Shown here: one piece after another, positions 48,269-55,667 of the stretch | Layout: each line of letters begins with the position of its first letter | Position numbering within the stretch: the stretch's first letter is position 1 | Notes under the pieces: generated by a model | Told to the model about the DNA's origin: nothing | Databases searched by the model: none | The model's input: the letters and a program-made list of their open reading frames with translations, nothing else | Source: an uncultured Hyphomonadaceae bacterium | GTDB taxonomy: Bacteria > Pseudomonadota > Alphaproteobacteria > Caulobacterales > Maricaulaceae | Assembly: GCA_913058335.1 (NCBI GenBank) | Contig: CAJXPX010000003.1 | Coordinates: 1-64,000, forward strand | DNA length: 64,000 nt | Direction of reading: 5' to 3' | Translations under genes and position numbers: made by a program

Positions 48269-49498
48269 TCACGCAACATAAGATAATTTTTGCATGTCTT
48301 GGGGCCTTTTAGCGTCAAAGCTCATTGTAAAAGTGGCGCCTTTGCCAGGCTCACTGTCAATCACAATATCGCCGTCCATCATGCGAGCAAATTTCCGCGC
48401 AATAGATAGTCCGAGCCCGCTGCCGCCATAACGGCGCGTCGTCGATCCATCGGCCTGAGTAAAAGGCTCAAAGAGTTTGGGCTGTACCTCTTTTTCAATC
48501 CCAATGCCTGTATCTATCACTTTGATTTTGAGAGTGTCGGAACGACTTTGTTTTTCGGATGACACTTGAACGGAGACTGATCCAGTCTCTGTAAACTTTA
48601 TTGCATTCGAAATTAAATTTGAAACACATTGCCCTAAACGGAGGCCGTCAATATGAATTGATTCAGGACAGGCTCTGTCCACCTCCAATGTAAGAGACAG
48701 CCCCTTGGCGTCGGCAGAGGCGCGGTGCAAATCCACGGCCTCGGAGAGAACCTTCATTACATTTTCATCTTGTGGATTAAGTGTCAGTCGTCCCGATTCT
48801 ATTTTAGAAATATCTAGAACATCATTGAGAATGCCCATCAAAGCCTCTCCGGATTTGAGGATGATATTAACAATCTCTTTTTGTTCCGGCGGCATGTCAA
48901 AACTCTTCATGACTTGCGCCATGCCTAAAACTCCGTTCATGGGGGTTCTGATTTCGTGACTCATATTTGCCAAAAATTGTGACTTGGCGACATTCGCGGC
49001 CTCTGCCAAAGCTTTCTTTTTTGTGATTTCCTGACTCATGTTGCGCGTTTCTTCCAGCAGGACTTTGTGAAAGCGCGAAACAAATAAGAGATCGACCGAG
49101 CTATCCGTCGGCGCAAAATCGGAAAAGATTAAATCGCGGGCTTTGTTGTTTTTTCCTTCAGACGGCACATGTCCAAGAAGGAGTAGATAGCCGTTTTGAG
49201 AATTGATAACGCTTCCTCTCAGAAATATCTCTTCTGCTATCCCCTTGCCTGACATAACAATTTCCCGGATCGTCCCGCCCTTTCCGGAGGAAGAAATTTT
49301 CTGCGGAAAATTTACGCGAAAGATAGAGTTTAAAGGCTTTCCGATAGGCTCGAGCGATATATGACGCTTTAAGGAGGGCCCAAGGCCGGAGATGGCCCCC
49401 GCCTTGTCTATTTCAATATGGGCTGGAAATAACCTGTCCAGTTTATCTTGATTGAGAAAAACACCCACGACGTCAGCCCACCATATCCAACGCGTCAT
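48269..49498 (-). CDS. H-NOX-associated sensor histidine kinase (HnoK-like)
   Basis: A 409-residue soluble kinase. The N-terminal ~140 residues resemble the HNOBA (H-NOX-associated) domain. A coiled coil leads to [18 protein letters not shown] (phospho-acceptor H181) and a HATPase with SNAIKF, DTGIGI and [13 protein letters not shown]. There is no membrane segment or receiver domain. Its start overlaps the end of the H-NOX gene by 26 bases, the standard H-NOX/kinase pairing in which NO-bound H-NOX alters kinase activity. The phosphorelay partner is not obvious nearby. Confidence 0.88.
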
Positions 49499-50060
49499 GA
49501 TAAGACTTATTTGAAAGAGGCAAAGTTACAGCGCGTTCCAAGGTAAAATACGTCCCGTCCGCTTTGATCTCATACTCAAGAGTCATTTGCGCCTCAAAAT
49601 GTTCAATAACCCCTTCCATTATTCCGAAAACCAATTCTTCAAACCCTTCCCGCGCAGAGCGGTAGATTACTTTAAGTCTATCAGTTTCCACGGAAACCAA
49701 TTGGAAACTCGGCAAGATCGCCTCCGGCAGAGTTCTGTTCAAACTTTCATGCATTCGATCTAAGTTCTCGAGAAAATCAGGTAATGTTTTCCCTGTCAGC
49801 GTCAAAATGCTCTCATATCCCGCTTGTTTCGTATATTCGATCCAATGGCGGCCCGCGGCCCGCAAGACATCTTTGATTGACAGATTACATTCTTCCGAGA
49901 TTGCCGTAATCAGTTTCAGGGTAATTTCATCCGTATGATAGGCGGCGCTAATGAAGTGTTCTTCTTTCAGTCCGGAGTGTTTCAGACATTTTAACCACAC
50001 TTCTGTCCCGTATAGTTTTAGGACAGCGTGCTGACATCCTCTGTGGATCATTCCATACAT
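49473..50060 (-). CDS. Haem-based NO sensor (H-NOX/HNOB)
   Basis: A 195-residue haem protein. MYGMIHRG opens the fold. The proximal haem ligand is H104 (LDRMHESL), and Y133-S135-R137 form the YxSxR motif that binds the haem propionates ([13 protein letters not shown]). P117 matches the conserved proline that distorts the haem. I see no distal tyrosine typical of oxygen binders, so NO selectivity is likely. It overlaps the downstream kinase gene and is divergent, across 221 bases, from the peptide exporter. Confidence 0.92.
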
Positions 50061-50281: not shown

Positions 50282-50500
50282 ATGTCTGATTTGTTCCGCA
50301 AAGAAGCATTAGAAAATCGGTCACGGGCGCTTTACGGCGAAGTGGCTCTGCGCGGCCCTTTGAGCAGTTGGATTTTGACCGCTCTCATTCTTATTTTTAC
50401 AATTATAGCTATTACGCTTTTATTTGTTCTAAGAGTGCAAACTGAAGACGGGCCCATGCGCCTATTCTTCTGGTTATTAAGCGGGGCAAAAAGCGGATGA
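50282..50500 (+). CDS. HlyD adaptor N-terminal stub
   Basis: A 72-residue protein. LFRKEALENRSRALYGEVAL matches the cytoplasmic start of CvaA/HlyD-type membrane fusion proteins, and residues ~29-50 form the single membrane segment. After RVQTEDG it ends within about 20 residues, so the periplasmic hairpin, lipoyl and barrel domains are absent. The next gene begins within its stop (ATGA), leaving no room for a lost fragment. It may be a functional mini-adaptor or a deletion relic. The uninterrupted frame and coupling favour function. Confidence 0.7.
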   Translation: MSDLFRKEALENRSRALYGEVALRGPLSSWILTALILIFTIIAITLLFVLRVQTEDGPMRLFFWLLSGAKSG

Positions 50501-52560
50501 GCTTATTTTCCCGACCTTCCCTGCCGGTTATATTGCAAACCGAAATGACAGAATGCGGTCTGGCCTGTATGGCGATGATTGCCCGCTATCACGGCCACGA
50601 TATTGATTTGAATATTTTGCGGCGTCGTCACCTCGTCTCTATGAGCGGCACGTCGCTTGGCGGGTTGATGAAAATTGCGGCCACGCTCGATTTGGCGCCG
50701 CGGCCGCTTCGGGTCGAACTCGACCAACTTCATAAATTGCAGACACCGGCCATTTTGCACTGGGATCTTAATCATTTTGTCGTGTTGAAATCCGTCAAAG
50801 GCGACAAGGTTAAGATCGTTGACCCCGGTATAGGCCAGCGCGTTATGTCCCTGAGCCAAGTCTCGAAACATTTTACCGGCGTCGCAATGGAGCTCTCTCC
50901 CACAGCGGAGTTTAGCGCGCAGGATGAGCGCCTCCGCCCCCATTTATCCTTGCTCTGGTCGCGACTGGTCGGGTTGAAACGGGCTATCTTTCAAACGCTG
51001 AGCTTATCGGTTGTCCTACAGCTCATCATTCTGGTCAGCCCGTTCTATCTACAACTGGTTGTCGACGGCGCCTTGCCAAGCGGGGATTACCAACTGCTTT
51101 TGGGCTTGGCTCTCGGCTTTGGCGGCCTTGCAATCTTGCGCGCGGTCAGCGAGGCCGTTCGCGGCTGGGCCATTCTGATCTATGGTAATCAGATGAGCTT
51201 GCAGATGGTTGGAAATGTCTTTCGGCATATGAGCCGGCTGCCCACTCGCTATTTCGAAAAACGCCATGTCGGCGACATTATTAGCCGGATGAATAGCACA
51301 AAGCCTATTCAAGAAGCCCTGACGCAATCCGTTGTTTCCGTCTTGATTGACGGGGTAATGGCGGCCTTAATGCTGGCCGTCATGTTTCTCTACTCGCCTT
51401 TGCTTTTTGCTATTGTGCTTGTCAGCGCGCTTTTGCTCATTTCGGTGACACTCATTATTTATCCGCATCTGCGCCGTACGCAGGAAGAAACTATCTATGC
51501 CAAAGCAGTCGAGAACACGCATGTCATCGAATCTATTCGCGCAAATACGACTGTTAAACTTTTTGGGCGCGAAGCGGAGCGCGAAGCGGCATGGCGTAAT
51601 CTTTATACTGATTTCATCAATGCAAATGTCGAATATGGCAAATTTCTGGTGCTGCAGAAGTTTGCAGAAACCCTTATCAATGGGCTTCAAATAGTTATCG
51701 TCGTCTGGGCGGCGGCCGTTTTAATGATAGGAGATGGCAGCGCTTTTACCTTGGGTATGCTGGTCGCCTTCCTGGCTTATAGACAGTATTTCACGGACGC
51801 CGTGTCTCAACTCTTGCAAAAAGGGATAGAGTTTCGTCTGCTTTCGCTCCATTTGGATCGGCTCTCCGACATCATATTTGAAGAGCGCGAGCCCCAACGC
51901 GCCGTTATAGAGAGCGCCCCCGATATAAAGGGACATATTGAATTGAAAGATGTCTCTTTTCGCTATGCCGACTCTGACCCGTGGGTGCTGGAAAATCGAT
52001 CTTTGAATATTCCCGCCGGGCAGATGGTCACTCTCACCGGGAAAAGCGGCGGCGGGAAGACAACGCTTATGAAGCTAATGCTCGGATTATATGCCCCTGA
52101 GGGCGGGACACTCAGCATAGACGGTCAATCCTTGCCAAAAATCGGCCTGTCAAATTGGCGCTCGCAAATTGGAGTTGTCATGCAGGATGACCGACTCCTG
52201 TCGGGAACAATTGCCGATAATATCAGCTTTTTCGACCCCGAAATGGATATGACCCGCGTTCAGAAAGCCGCTCAGTCCGCCCAAATTCACGATACAATTG
52301 CTAAACTTCCCATGAATTACCTCTCGGTCGTCGGAGATATGGGCTCAATTCTGTCCGGCGGACAGAAGCAAAGATTGCTCCTCGCACGTGCGCTCTATCA
52401 AGATCCAAAGGTTTTATTTCTTGATGAAGGCACCGCCAATTTGGATACGGAAACGGAAAAAGCGATTGTCGGCGTAATCAAGAATCTTGAAATCACGCGC
52501 GTAATCGTTGCCCATAGGCCAGCTTTCATCAAAGCCTCGGATATAGTTGTCAATATCTAA
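50497..52560 (+). CDS. C39 peptidase-containing ABC exporter
   Basis: A 687-residue PCAT-type transporter. The C39 domain (residues ~10-130) has Q14, catalytic C20 (MTECGLACMAMI), H93 (NHFVVL) and D109 (VDPGIG), so the protease looks active. Six membrane segments follow, then an ABC domain with GKSGGGKTT, LSGGQKQRLLLARAL and VLFLDEGTA. It resembles CvaB/RaxB-type exporters that cut double-glycine leaders while exporting the peptide. The stub adaptor is coupled to it, and a matching GG-leader gene lies 220 bases downstream. No TolC-like gene is in the window. Confidence 0.93.
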   Translation: MSLFSRPSLPVILQTEMTECGLACMAMIARYHGHDIDLNILRRRHLVSMSGTSLGGLMKIAATLDLAPRPLRVELDQLHKLQTPAILHWDLNHFVVLKSVKGDKVKIVDPGIGQRVMSLSQVSKHFTGVAMELSPTAEFSAQDERLRPHLSLLWSRLVGLKRAIFQTLSLSVVLQLIILVSPFYLQLVVDGALPSGDYQLLLGLALGFGGLAILRAVSEAVRGWAILIYGNQMSLQMVGNVFRHMSRLPTRYFEKRHVGDIISRMNSTKPIQEALTQSVVSVLIDGVMAALMLAVMFLYSPLLFAIVLVSALLLISVTLIIYPHLRRTQEETIYAKAVENTHVIESIRANTTVKLFGREAEREAAWRNLYTDFINANVEYGKFLVLQKFAETLINGLQIVIVVWAAAVLMIGDGSAFTLGMLVAFLAYRQYFTDAVSQLLQKGIEFRLLSLHLDRLSDIIFEEREPQRAVIESAPDIKGHIELKDVSFRYADSDPWVLENRSLNIPAGQMVTLTGKSGGGKTTLMKLMLGLYAPEGGTLSIDGQSLPKIGLSNWRSQIGVVMQDDRLLSGTIADNISFFDPEMDMTRVQKAAQSAQIHDTIAKLPMNYLSVVGDMGSILSGGQKQRLLLARALYQDPKVLFLDEGTANLDTETEKAIVGVIKNLEITRVIVAHRPAFIKASDIVVNI

Positions 52561-52732
52561 ATCGTCCAAATTTTGGTCGAAAGTTGCGATCTCAACTCAA
52601 TTTCTCATTCTTTTTGTGATTTCTTGCAACCTTTCCTAGTGTTTTACGTAATTTACATATCATTAACCATAGATTGTTTTGAAACAGAGCAATTTTTACT
52701 TGCCAGACACTATAGTTTCTGATGTCTTAACA

Positions 52733-52756
52733 CAGAGCATCAATGGTGGTGCTCTG
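52733..52756 (+). promoter_or_regulatory. Hairpin in the leader of the GG-peptide gene
   Basis: CAGAGCA and TGCTCTG form a 7-bp stem with a 10-base loop, 24 bases before the peptide ATG. It could stabilise the short mRNA or serve as an operator. A CtrA-like TTAACCAT occurs further upstream near 52663. Confidence 0.4.
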
Positions 52757-52780
52757 AACACTTAATGAAAGAGAAAATCA

Positions 52781-52861
52781 ATGCGTGAGCTTACTCTTGA
52801 AGAAGTCGAAGTCGTAACAGGTGGCATGCCCATCCTCACAGGCGGCATCGGCGAAAACTAA
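52781..52861 (+). CDS. Double-glycine leader peptide (secreted-peptide precursor)
   Basis: A 26-residue product. The leader MRELTLEEVEVVTGG has the double glycine at residues 14-15 and hydrophobic residues at -12 (L4), -7 (V9) and -4 (V12), the positions read by C39 peptidases. The core is MPILTGGIGEN; a second TGG at residues 20-22 could allow another cut. An AAAGAGAA ribosome-binding site lies upstream and a strong terminator starts 25 bases after the stop. The core has no cysteine or serine, so thioether chemistry is unlikely. It is too short for a typical bacteriocin; a signal peptide is a better guess. Confidence 0.8.
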   Translation: MRELTLEEVEVVTGGMPILTGGIGEN

Positions 52862-52885
52862 GAATTTAAAAAATGTGGATTTGTG

Positions 52886-52909
52886 ACCCGCCATCTGGCG
52901 GGTTTTTTT
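52886..52909 (+). terminator. Intrinsic terminator of the GG-peptide gene
   Basis: CCCGCCA and TGGCGGG pair around a 2-base loop and are followed by seven T residues. This closes a very short transcript and separates it from the downstream kinase. Confidence 0.9.
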
Positions 52910-53003
52910 GTGGAACCTTCAAATTATAAATTACTGTCTCATTTAGGTACGTAATTTTAATCTTTCCTGTTTATGTCTAACTTTCAATATTGATAGGTTT
53001 GAC

Positions 53004-55667
53004 ATGGCTTTTTGCCAAAATACGCGCAGGAGTTTTAAAGTTGGGGTTTTATTCACCTCAATTTTTCATATCTTTTGCTTTGTTTCTCCCGCCATCGCAC
53101 AAACTGCTGCGGATGTTGAATCTGTTTCAGCAATTTCTATTGCGCGTCAAATTGAAGAGTTATCACTTGTTGAAATCAATAGTAATGAAGCTCTCACCAA
53201 GCCAGAAACTTCGGCGCAAGCTCGAAAACAAATTCTTGAGGCTCTACCAAGCGGCAACCAAGAAAGGTTTGATAGAGCCGTCAACTATTATCATGAACTG
53301 GCGGATGAAAGAGGCTCCAAACGCGACTTTGAAATTATAAATGTTTATGAACGATTTTCTGAGATTTATGACTTCCAAAAAGTTGGAGCAAATTACTTTC
53401 AATTAACTGAACTGCTAGAAAAATTATCAAACAATAACGATTGGTTGGTAAAGTTTCATGCAAAGCGTTTGTTATCAATTGTACACACACATTCCTTCAA
53501 AAACGGCTCTGCACTTCGCGTAGCTCAAGAAGCTTTAGACATTATTCCAAATGACCTATCTTCTGAAGCAGTAGAATCTCGTATATTCGCTATCGAATTA
53601 TTAGCGTTTCTGCAAAATGTCACCGCAAATAAAGATCTAGCATTATACAATACTCAACGACTAATAAATCTTAAATTAGAAGCTAATCAACCTATAGATG
53701 GAATAGAGCTAATTAATAATCTGATGTTCTCGCTTAATGAGTGGCGGGAATATGAGACACGTTTGGAGTTAGCGAAAACCTTAAAGCGGCTCGAAGATAA
53801 ATTTGGGTCAACCACACCTGGACTTTCGAGCACACATATAGCTCGTATAAATAATGATATTGGGAATTATAAAGAAGCTAAAATAGCCGCCCAAGAGGCA
53901 TTAGATGAAGCCAATATAAATTCAATCAAAAGAATTGCCTCAATACAACTTGCCACCGCTCATGCAGGGCTTGGGAATACCATCGAAGCAAAGAATCTTC
54001 TGAGCTCGATAGAAGAAAAAATAAATCAAAACAACGCATCGGTCATATATGCAAATGCGCTTATTGCTCTCCAAGAAGGAAAGACAAAAAAAGCTCTCTC
54101 CTTATTAAATCAAAAATACGACCGTAAAGTCACACAGATTCTTAAGGCAACGAATCGTGATACGATGGAAATGCTCGCAGAATTGGAAAATTCCAGTGAG
54201 AGGCAGGCGGAGCGGGAAGCGGCTTTGCAGCGCGAAGCCGCCCTTATTCAGACGAAGCTCGACCAACAACAGCGTATCAATAAACTGCTTTACGCCTTTA
54301 TGGTCTTGATCGCCTTGACCGGAATTTGCGCCCTCCTCTTTGCGCGCCACAGGGATAAGCTGGCGAAGCTTCTTGCAATTAAATCCCGTGAAGCCGAGAG
54401 CGCCGACCGCATGAAAACCGAATTTCTTGGTATGGTCAGCCATGAACTTCGCACCCCCTTAAACGGCATCATCGGTCTTGCCGATGTTCTGACCACGTCC
54501 GGTCCGACCGAAGAAGTTCGCCAGCGCGGAGATATTATTTTGACGTCAGGCAATATTCTCTTTGCCCTTATTGAGAGTATTATTGACATGTCGAGGCTGG
54601 AAGCCGGTAAATTGGAGCTCGCTCCCGAACCGACACAGCTCAAGGCACTTCTCGAGAAAAATTTAGATTATATGGAGCGCGGCTCGGCTGAAAAGGGCAT
54701 AACTTTCACATCCTATGTTTCGCCTGACTGTGATCGGGAATTTGAATTGGATCCGGCACGTATCGAAAAATGCGTAAATACCTTATTATGCAACGCTTTG
54801 AAGTTTACCACTGAGGGCCGAATTCATCTTCATGTGACAGCTGAGACAGATCAGAAGACCGGTCAAAGCGAAATTAAGGCTATTGTGGCGGATACCGGAC
54901 AGGGAATCAGTGAAGAGGTTCAGGCAAAACTCTTTACGCCATTCCTTCAGGCTGATGCGTCAATGACACGTAAACATGGCGGCTCAGGCTTGCGCTTAGC
55001 CATTTCTCGAATGCTGGCGCGGATGATGGACGGCGACATCACCCTGAACTCCAAAGAGGGTTGTGGTTCTGAATTTATATTGACCTTCAAAGCGAAGGCA
55101 CTTGGTGAAAGACAGATAAACACCGCCGAATCACAAATAGAGACGCTGCAAAAGAAACCGTCCACTGCCAAACCGGCAGACACGGTCCAGCCTAGTTTCC
55201 TCCTTGAGCCCTCCTTCAAAGAAGACGAAACTATCTCTGAGGATTTAAAACAGTGCCGCGCCTTAATCGTAGAGGACCTTCGCTCCAATCAGGACGTCAT
55301 CGCCGTAATGTTGAATTCAGCGGGTATAGAATATGTGCCTGTCGACAGTGGTGAAAACGCCTTAAGCGTTCTCCAAACCCAGCATTTTGACTTCGTCTTA
55401 ATGGATGTTCACATGCCCGGAATGGACGGAATCGAAACGACGCGCCGCATTAGAGGTGGAAATCAGCCTTGGTCGGACATTCCTATTATTGCCCTGACTG
55501 CAGACGCGGCAGCAGAAAATAACGCCGCCTGCATGGCCGCCGGAGTTGATATATTTCTGACGAAACCTGTCATGTCGAAAGATCTTTTGGCAGCGATAGA
55601 AAAGGTCACGGATCAACCCTTTGAACATACCGAGGGACAGCCCGTCCAACTCCCTAAAAAAGCCTGA
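53004..55667 (+). CDS. Hybrid sensor histidine kinase with periplasmic helical sensor
   Basis: An 887-residue protein. A signal/anchor (residues ~12-32) leads to a ~390-residue periplasmic region of helical repeats resembling TPRs. A coiled coil (~390-425), a membrane segment (427-447), a HisKA domain with phospho-acceptor H480 (MVSHELRTPLNG) and a HATPase (CNALKF, DTGQGI, GGSGLRLAIS) follow. The REC domain carries D801 (LMDVHMPG). The periplasmic half is noticeably more AT-rich than the kinase half, suggesting module exchange. It lies 95 bases after the GG-peptide terminator and is a candidate receptor for that peptide. Confidence 0.88.
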   Translation: MAFCQNTRRSFKVGVLFTSIFHIFCFVSPAIAQTAADVESVSAISIARQIEELSLVEINSNEALTKPETSAQARKQILEALPSGNQERFDRAVNYYHELADERGSKRDFEIINVYERFSEIYDFQKVGANYFQLTELLEKLSNNNDWLVKFHAKRLLSIVHTHSFKNGSALRVAQEALDIIPNDLSSEAVESRIFAIELLAFLQNVTANKDLALYNTQRLINLKLEANQPIDGIELINNLMFSLNEWREYETRLELAKTLKRLEDKFGSTTPGLSSTHIARINNDIGNYKEAKIAAQEALDEANINSIKRIASIQLATAHAGLGNTIEAKNLLSSIEEKINQNNASVIYANALIALQEGKTKKALSLLNQKYDRKVTQILKATNRDTMEMLAELENSSERQAEREAALQREAALIQTKLDQQQRINKLLYAFMVLIALTGICALLFARHRDKLAKLLAIKSREAESADRMKTEFLGMVSHELRTPLNGIIGLADVLTTSGPTEEVRQRGDIILTSGNILFALIESIIDMSRLEAGKLELAPEPTQLKALLEKNLDYMERGSAEKGITFTSYVSPDCDREFELDPARIEKCVNTLLCNALKFTTEGRIHLHVTAETDQKTGQSEIKAIVADTGQGISEEVQAKLFTPFLQADASMTRKHGGSGLRLAISRMLARMMDGDITLNSKEGCGSEFILTFKAKALGERQINTAESQIETLQKKPSTAKPADTVQPSFLLEPSFKEDETISEDLKQCRALIVEDLRSNQDVIAVMLNSAGIEYVPVDSGENALSVLQTQHFDFVLMDVHMPGMDGIETTRRIRGGNQPWSDIPIIALTADAAAENNAACMAAGVDIFLTKPVMSKDLLAAIEKVTDQPFEHTEGQPVQLPKKA

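Follow-up and report, generated by a model that had tools for sequence, protein, structure and literature searches.

The locus

The window, by which we mean the whole stretch of 64,000 nucleotides analysed here, contains four genes that follow one another on the plus strand, one of them only 26 codons long, together with several short elements that surround this smallest gene:

50282-50500, plus strand: stub of a HlyD-type membrane-fusion protein, 72 aa, recognised by its homology to the N-terminus (cytoplasmic part and transmembrane helix) of such proteins
50497-52560, plus strand: C39 peptidase-ABC exporter, 687 aa, recognised by Pfam, alignment with 4ry2 and orthologues
52699-52704, plus strand: promoter-like CTTGCC
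52733-52756, plus strand: stem-loop before the peptide gene
52781-52861, plus strand: mini double-glycine precursor, leader MRELTLEEVEVVTGG, core MPILTGGIGEN
52885-52911, plus strand: intrinsic terminator after the peptide gene (terminator-like stem at 52885-52904, then a T run)
53004-55667, plus strand: hybrid histidine kinase, 887 aa, with an N-terminal hydrophobic segment, a TPR sensor, a transmembrane segment at about 425-450, HisKA, HATPase and a receiver

The small open reading frame translates as MRELTLEEVEVVTGGMPILTGGIGEN; it starts 220 nt after the exporter gene, and the kinase gene comes next. The original prediction, made from the window alone, had read it as a precursor with a double-glycine (GG) leader carrying hydrophobic residues at -12, -7, and -4 relative to the cleavage point, and this reading holds, as these residues are L, V, and V and are followed by GG. 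The terminator assigned to the gene was also found again, as a hairpin with a T tail; the ribosome-binding site, described as good, is to the eye a modest GAAAGAG, and sites of the AGGA or GGAG type precede the gene in several relatives. Attention had further been drawn to a second TGG in the core. It is real and goes with a direct repeat, ACAGG[TC]GGCAT (52817-52847), yet it is no feature of the peptide family described below, among whose cores MPILTGGIGEN is an outlier in its second half. This repeat could be an incipient tandem-core expansion, or it could supply a second site of cleavage. Of the neighbouring genes the prediction named the exporter, leaving the kinase and the amputated membrane-fusion protein unmentioned.

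Standard gene calling easily misses genes this short. Pfam and NCBIfam gave no family for the peptide at E values up to 1, a second copy of the gene was not detected in its own genome, and we found no description of this peptide family in the open PMC literature. Another GG-like frame at 52679-52765 (TTG start, ...SINGGALNT) might have encoded a partner peptide but was rejected: it overlaps the stem-loop, lacks a convincing family match, and the equivalent TTG in the nearest relative is followed by a stop two codons on. Upstream, an H-NOX (HNOB) gene and an HNOBA-histidine kinase gene occupy 48269-50060 on the minus strand, divergent from the four genes; the nearest relative (L032) lacks this pair there and has dapF immediately before the stub.

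A conserved family of very short precursors

With the exporter as the query against 60 relatives, the 16 nearest orthologues were read with their flanks, and a mini GG precursor lies just downstream of the exporter in 15 of them, the remaining one (L038) stopping at a contig edge. Twenty further loci (L110-L129) picked by the fusion-protein stub bring the set to 37 with the window. A precursor is present in 32 of these, 146-277 nt after the exporter gene, and the other five run out 5-220 nt past the exporter. Four more precursors were reached through the kinase, one with no adjacent exporter (L216) and three on contigs other than that of the exporter (L225, L226, L229), for a total of 36 precursors with 35 distinct cores. 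The window's family, the relatives of Hellea, Litorimonas, and Algimonas, thus has a four-gene cassette of membrane-fusion protein stub, C39-ABC exporter, mini GG precursor, and histidine kinase, whose anatomy and conservation can be read directly from these genomes.

The leader is nearly invariant, with M1, R2, L4, E8, and G14 fixed in 36 of 36 precursors, hydrophobic residues at -4, -7, and -12, and a cleavage site that is GG in 35 and GA in one. These features, like the linked C39-ABC exporter beside 32 precursors, are those expected of C39-processed double-glycine peptides. The leader is also under strong purifying selection: pooled pN/pS over 17 pairs is 0.18 in the leader as against 0.42 in the core, and over 8 pairs chosen as independent the values are 0.12 and 0.62. 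Loss of the frame or of the leader in relatives had been named as what would speak against the gene, and both are conserved. The 26-codon frame is therefore a real conserved gene and not a chance opening, given the frame kept in relatives, the leader pN/pS of 0.12-0.18, and the 36 members of the family.

The cores are usually 5-11 residues long and follow the pattern X-P-I-[IV]-[IV]..., with Pro at position 2 in 31 of 36 (one of them, L216, after a shift of one residue in the alignment) and mostly Ile or Val at positions 3-5. Position 1 is the most variable (3.46 bits), in fact hypervariable, and differs between close species. KRLKIKV, KVVVDY, KIVVD, RSIKT, and the long core of L127 fall off the pattern. 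Seven of the 36 precursors carry identical cores in tandem, in two to four copies:

L033: FPIIIG, three copies
L047: FPIDIEV, two copies
L120: RSIKT, four copies
L128: IPVIDF, four copies
L129: LPADIEW, four copies
L216: GPVIIET, three copies
L225: LPIDIEV, three copies

The linkers between the copies are unequal within most of these precursors, and the repetition of an identical core likely marks the mature unit, as far as the sequence alone can tell. Three named species carry single cores of the common type, MPIIIDF in Hellea balneolensis DSM 19091, NPIVIDF in Litorimonas cladophorae KCTC 23968, and APIIVDF in Algimonas arctica KCTC 32513.

The region before the precursor gene is also patterned. 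In 17 of 32 loci the start codon is preceded, at a distance of 71-91 nt, by a CTTG, a count given without a chance control, and the stem-loop often comes after it. This stem-loop has a shuffle p of 0.005 at the window locus and of less than 0.05 in 12 of 32 loci. Of the 32 loci, 21 have a stem pairing at 6 of 6 positions with a 6-nt loop, which arises in 15% of mononucleotide shuffles; looser stems, with at least 5 of 6 pairs, are common by chance (77% of shuffles). The stem sequences vary between related species, as in GTTTCC/GGAAAC (L034), GTCCTT/GAGGAC (L110), and GCTTCT/GGAAGC (L112). The stem-loop probably sits near the 5' end of the peptide mRNA, and CTTG and stem-loop together may represent a dedicated promoter and a 5' stem-loop.

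An exporter with a truncated fusion protein

The complete C39-ABC exporter noted upstream in the original prediction is borne out by the presence of all three domains (Peptidase_C39, ABC_membrane, and ABC_tran) and by an alignment over its length with the solved exporter 4ry2, in which the C39 domains match at the conserved Cys, His, and Asp regions; we take these three residues to be the catalytic ones. The ComA chains 8hf4-8hf7 were matched as well.

The stub is 63-84 aa long in all 37 loci read, lies before or overlaps the exporter gene, and lacks the periplasmic part of a fusion protein; at the 20 loci picked by it, its presence is not independent evidence. In full-length proteins, the part matched by the stub profile is the first ~50 residues, and one of these proteins, a full-length sister, has HlyD domains. 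Among the 137 genomes of the family, the profile found 43 places in 42 genomes at 54 bits or more, and all the remaining matches are below 49 bits and nearly all in frames of 407-433 aa (exceptions 40, 172, and 274 aa). The 37 loci leave out the stub places of G002, G005, G012, G128, G138, and G142; the stub frame of G012 has an internal TAA. Two stub-exporter loci (L115 and L116) share one metagenome-type assembly (G131), which could mean two systems or contamination.

Outside the family, no stub was recognised in 385 genomes of the class, where the three genomes with matches were the window's own, one with a full-length frame, and one with a broken 29-residue frame, nor in 398 genomes of the order, where 53 had matches, those of outsiders being mostly weak and in full-length frames. 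The short frames seen outside the family (G230, G325, G163, G761) are not part of such a cassette, and the stub profile had no match in the PDB. In a tree of 55 exporters, made by a quick method with 18 chosen exporters that have full fusion proteins, the 37 stub-linked exporters form one group (one change, SH-aLRT 97), so that the stub has a single origin in this tree. The group adjoins four exporters with full fusion proteins, two of which (L048, L145) have larger GG peptides of bacteriocin type nearby.

A kinase with a predicted periplasmic TPR sensor

A kinase gene on the same strand is the next gene after all 32 precursors that lie beside an exporter; 26 of these genes reach the H-box, and the 6 truncated at contig ends still match the sensor profile in that position. 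The kinases of L216, L225, L226, and L229, through which these loci were reached, are not independent evidence. Across the 137 family genomes, 38 have both stub and sensor, 4 the stub only, 7 the sensor only, and 88 neither (Fisher p 3.7e-22, with kinship ignored). The kinases of L042 and L044 are short (721 and 750 aa) and leave no room for the C-terminal receiver seen in the 9 kinases scanned. In one genus a putative PhzF-like gene, so assigned by a motif, follows the kinase (L117, L121, L122, L123, L229, and L046, where it looks split), and it might be a linked target of the kinase.

Hydropathy places an N-terminal hydrophobic segment and a single transmembrane segment before the kinase part in 22 of 26 sensors, and in the remaining 4 only the N-terminal call is missing; none of the 26 has a segment in the middle. 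The TPR sensor is accordingly predicted to be periplasmic. An AlphaFold2 model built from 26 sequences (pLDDT 86) is an all-helical TPR superhelix. Against the PDB, where query TM-scores are at most 0.47, RapI ranks second (query TM-score 0.47), and the matches include Rap with CSF, a phage Rap with its hexapeptide, and the pLS20 Rap with Phr*. LGN, kinesin light chain, and designed TPRs rank as high, so that the resemblance to Rap is suggestive and not specific.

The sensor is the most divergent part, with a mean identity of 26% where the kinase part has 45% and the exporter 66%. After correction for exporter similarity, loci with similar sensors do not tend to have similar cores: the partial Mantel value is -0.25 (p 0.98) over 25 loci, with L127 left out, and -0.09 (p 0.77) over 23 loci, with L120 and L041 left out as well, tandem precursors being represented by their first unit in both. 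The 420 nt upstream of 14 distant sensor kinases from two other families showed no core-like minigene, which indicates that this type of kinase is wider than the peptide.

Leaderless genes beside kinases without a stub

The seven family genomes with a sensor and no stub are of several kinds. In one (G018) the gene directly ahead of the kinase is a GG precursor with three cores, and there is no adjacent exporter; an exporter of this type (58% identity) lies elsewhere in the genome with a full fusion protein. In three others a leaderless minigene takes the place of the precursor, still beside the kinase:

G004: MRGPIIIL, 8 codons
G061: MTKNPIIIG, 9 codons
G076: MSIRKQPIVDF, 11 codons

Each consists of a Shine-Dalgarno-like site, a start codon (GTG in G061), and a frame ending in the core, and is followed by a terminator-like hairpin, seen by eye, and then by the sensor kinase. 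Shuffles of the three regions yielded such a minigene in 6, 2, and 2 of 3000 cases, for a motif that was fixed after the minigenes had been seen and that derives from the GG precursors, 7 of 36 of which lack it. Tried at four loci, the motif gave nothing in L224. No orthologous exporter was found in the three genomes, the best matches being 28% identical and without the C39 part in G004, a fragment at 38% in G061, and 30% in G076; at completeness values of 96%, 73%, and 92%, respectively, G061 is the weakest case of absence. The sensor of G076 is a distant one (3.4e-26). Among the remaining genomes with a sensor, no minigene was seen in G071, and the loci of G009 and G062 are cut by contig ends.

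Proposed mechanism and its alternatives

We consider it probable that the small gene encodes the precursor of a very short peptide signal that is cut, moved to the periplasm, and read by the TPR receptor kinase. We infer secretion, binding, and output as follows. The C39 domain would cut after GG, as is known for its family, and the ABC exporter would carry the short core across the inner membrane. Since only the N-terminal anchor of the membrane-fusion protein is left, the core would enter the periplasm instead of leaving the cell directly, and it may pass between cells by way of porins. The TPR domain of the kinase encoded next door, predicted to be periplasmic, would then recognise it in the way that Rap-type TPR proteins bind pheromones of 5-6 residues, a step suggested by fold and linkage, and the signal would travel onward by phosphorelay to some output.

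This proposal draws on the near-fixed leader and X-P-I-type core of 36 precursors, the pN/pS values, the 7 of 36 precursors with identical tandem cores, the kinase after 32 of 32 precursors, and the co-occurrence of stub and sensor. The precursor beside the kinase in G018, the leaderless core minigenes before kinases, the TPR model with its Rap matches, and the single stub group point the same way. Against it stand the negative partial Mantel values, the generic nature of the TPR matches, and the missing minigenes at the 14 distant loci and in G071; moreover, the leaderless peptides would need a way out of the cytoplasm, and tandem cores a further protease. The original prediction, in which a GG peptide is processed by the neighbouring C39 exporter and acts as a pheromone rather than a bacteriocin, gains support from the comparison, through the conserved leader, the tiny conserved core, the identical tandem cores, and the kinase after 32 of 32 precursors.

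An alternative to cell-cell signalling, which we regard as unlikely, is that the peptide is a private periplasmic signal reporting on the producing cell, for instance on exporter activity or the state of the envelope. The first core residue, hypervariable and unlike between close species, looks instead like the mark of pherotypes, and porins might let through peptides under about 1 kDa. Such a private signal would agree with a stub that is missing the periplasmic part on which the usual passage across the envelope depends, with a sensor predicted to be periplasmic, and with HetC of Nostoc, which has no fusion-protein gene nearby and is proposed to deliver its substrate to the periplasm (PMC10986499, in its passages on HetC).

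Less likely still is a cis-acting leader peptide, with mini-ORF and terminator forming an attenuator of read-through into the kinase gene and the peptide having no role of its own. The terminator does lie between the frame and the kinase gene (in the relatives, as judged by eye), and the leaderless frames of 8-11 codons are Ile/Val-rich and of leader-peptide size, but neither a GG leader under strong purifying selection beside a C39 exporter nor identical tandem cores would be expected of an attenuator. A very small bacteriocin or other antagonistic peptide is the least plausible. In its favour, larger GG peptides of bacteriocin type are found near C39 exporters of this subfamily (L048, L145), but the usual core is 5-11 residues long, the cassette showed no gene of immunity type, a sensor kinase gene comes next in 32 of 32 cases, and the fusion protein is a stub.

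Returning to the peptide signal read by the kinase, we would give about even chances to a fuller version, in which an exporter without a fusion protein delivers a pheromone of 5-11 residues to the periplasm, a Rap-like TPR kinase reads it, and the genes evolve into tandem precursors and, after loss of the exporter, shrink to 8-11 codons with no leader and go on signalling, the whole forming a new class of Gram-negative peptide signalling.

Comparison with known systems

The ComC-ComAB-ComDE systems are the GG pheromone circuits of streptococci, and the cassette shares with them a GG precursor, a C39-ABC exporter, and a histidine kinase, which is adjacent to all 32 precursors that lie beside an exporter. 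It differs in being Gram-negative, in having a core of usually 5-11 residues that is sometimes in tandem, and in its fusion-protein stub and leaderless forms. The polytopic membrane sensor of ComD is replaced by a predicted periplasmic TPR domain, with a single transmembrane segment before a kinase that usually has a receiver.

The RRNPP systems (Rap-Phr) resemble the cassette in having a TPR fold beside a very short peptide gene, and Rap chains are among the structural matches of the modelled TPR domain. Rap proteins act in the cytoplasm on re-imported peptides, whereas hydropathy puts a hydrophobic segment before and a transmembrane segment after the TPR domain in 22 of 26 sensors, as for a periplasmic kinase sensor; the similarity is that of generic TPRs only. 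Gram-negative C39 type 1 secretion, as of class II microcins and bacteriocins, has in common with the cassette the exporter subfamily and a fusion protein whose N-terminus is homologous to the stub. In place of the full-length fusion protein beside the exporter, all members of the cassette clade have a truncated one (37 of 37 loci), the core is far smaller, and a kinase replaces the immunity gene.

Two other systems come close in part. HetC of Nostoc PCC 7120 is also a C39-ABC exporter for which periplasmic delivery of a regulatory peptide is proposed, and this proposal is the support in print for periplasmic release; the passages on HetC describe neither a fusion-protein stub nor a sensor kinase partner (PMC10986499). 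Bacteroidales RiPP clusters combine GG-type precursors and PCAT exporters, again in a Gram-negative group, with possible signalling genes nearby, some having TPR genes or a kinase-regulator pair; in the parts of that source on these clusters, TPR and kinase are separate genes in different clusters, modification enzymes are present, and the peptide family is another one (PMC10352776).

Since the cassette departs from the ComD type of sensor and from full type 1 secretion, and is RRNPP-like only in fold, it is best viewed as a variant of GG-peptide signalling, one that would work most like a ComC-ComA-ComD circuit rebuilt for the Gram-negative envelope. It looks like an undescribed Gram-negative peptide signalling system conserved in marine stalked bacteria. 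Sensor kinases that read linear peptide pheromones are characteristic of Gram-positive bacteria, and, if the proposal is true, the cassette would be a conserved equivalent on the Gram-negative side, its signal, exporter, and candidate receptor encoded together. With Hellea balneolensis, Litorimonas cladophorae, and Algimonas arctica as cultured carriers, peptide quorum sensing could then be tested directly in stalked marine bacteria, and sharp experimental handles are offered by three features that are each unusual, the truncated fusion protein, the repeated cores, and the minigenes without a leader. The ordinary arrangement, which contrasts with the stub cassette, was seen in another family (L212:5969-7526), where a full-length fusion protein and a C39 exporter lie beside a divergent GG-type peptide of 59 aa.
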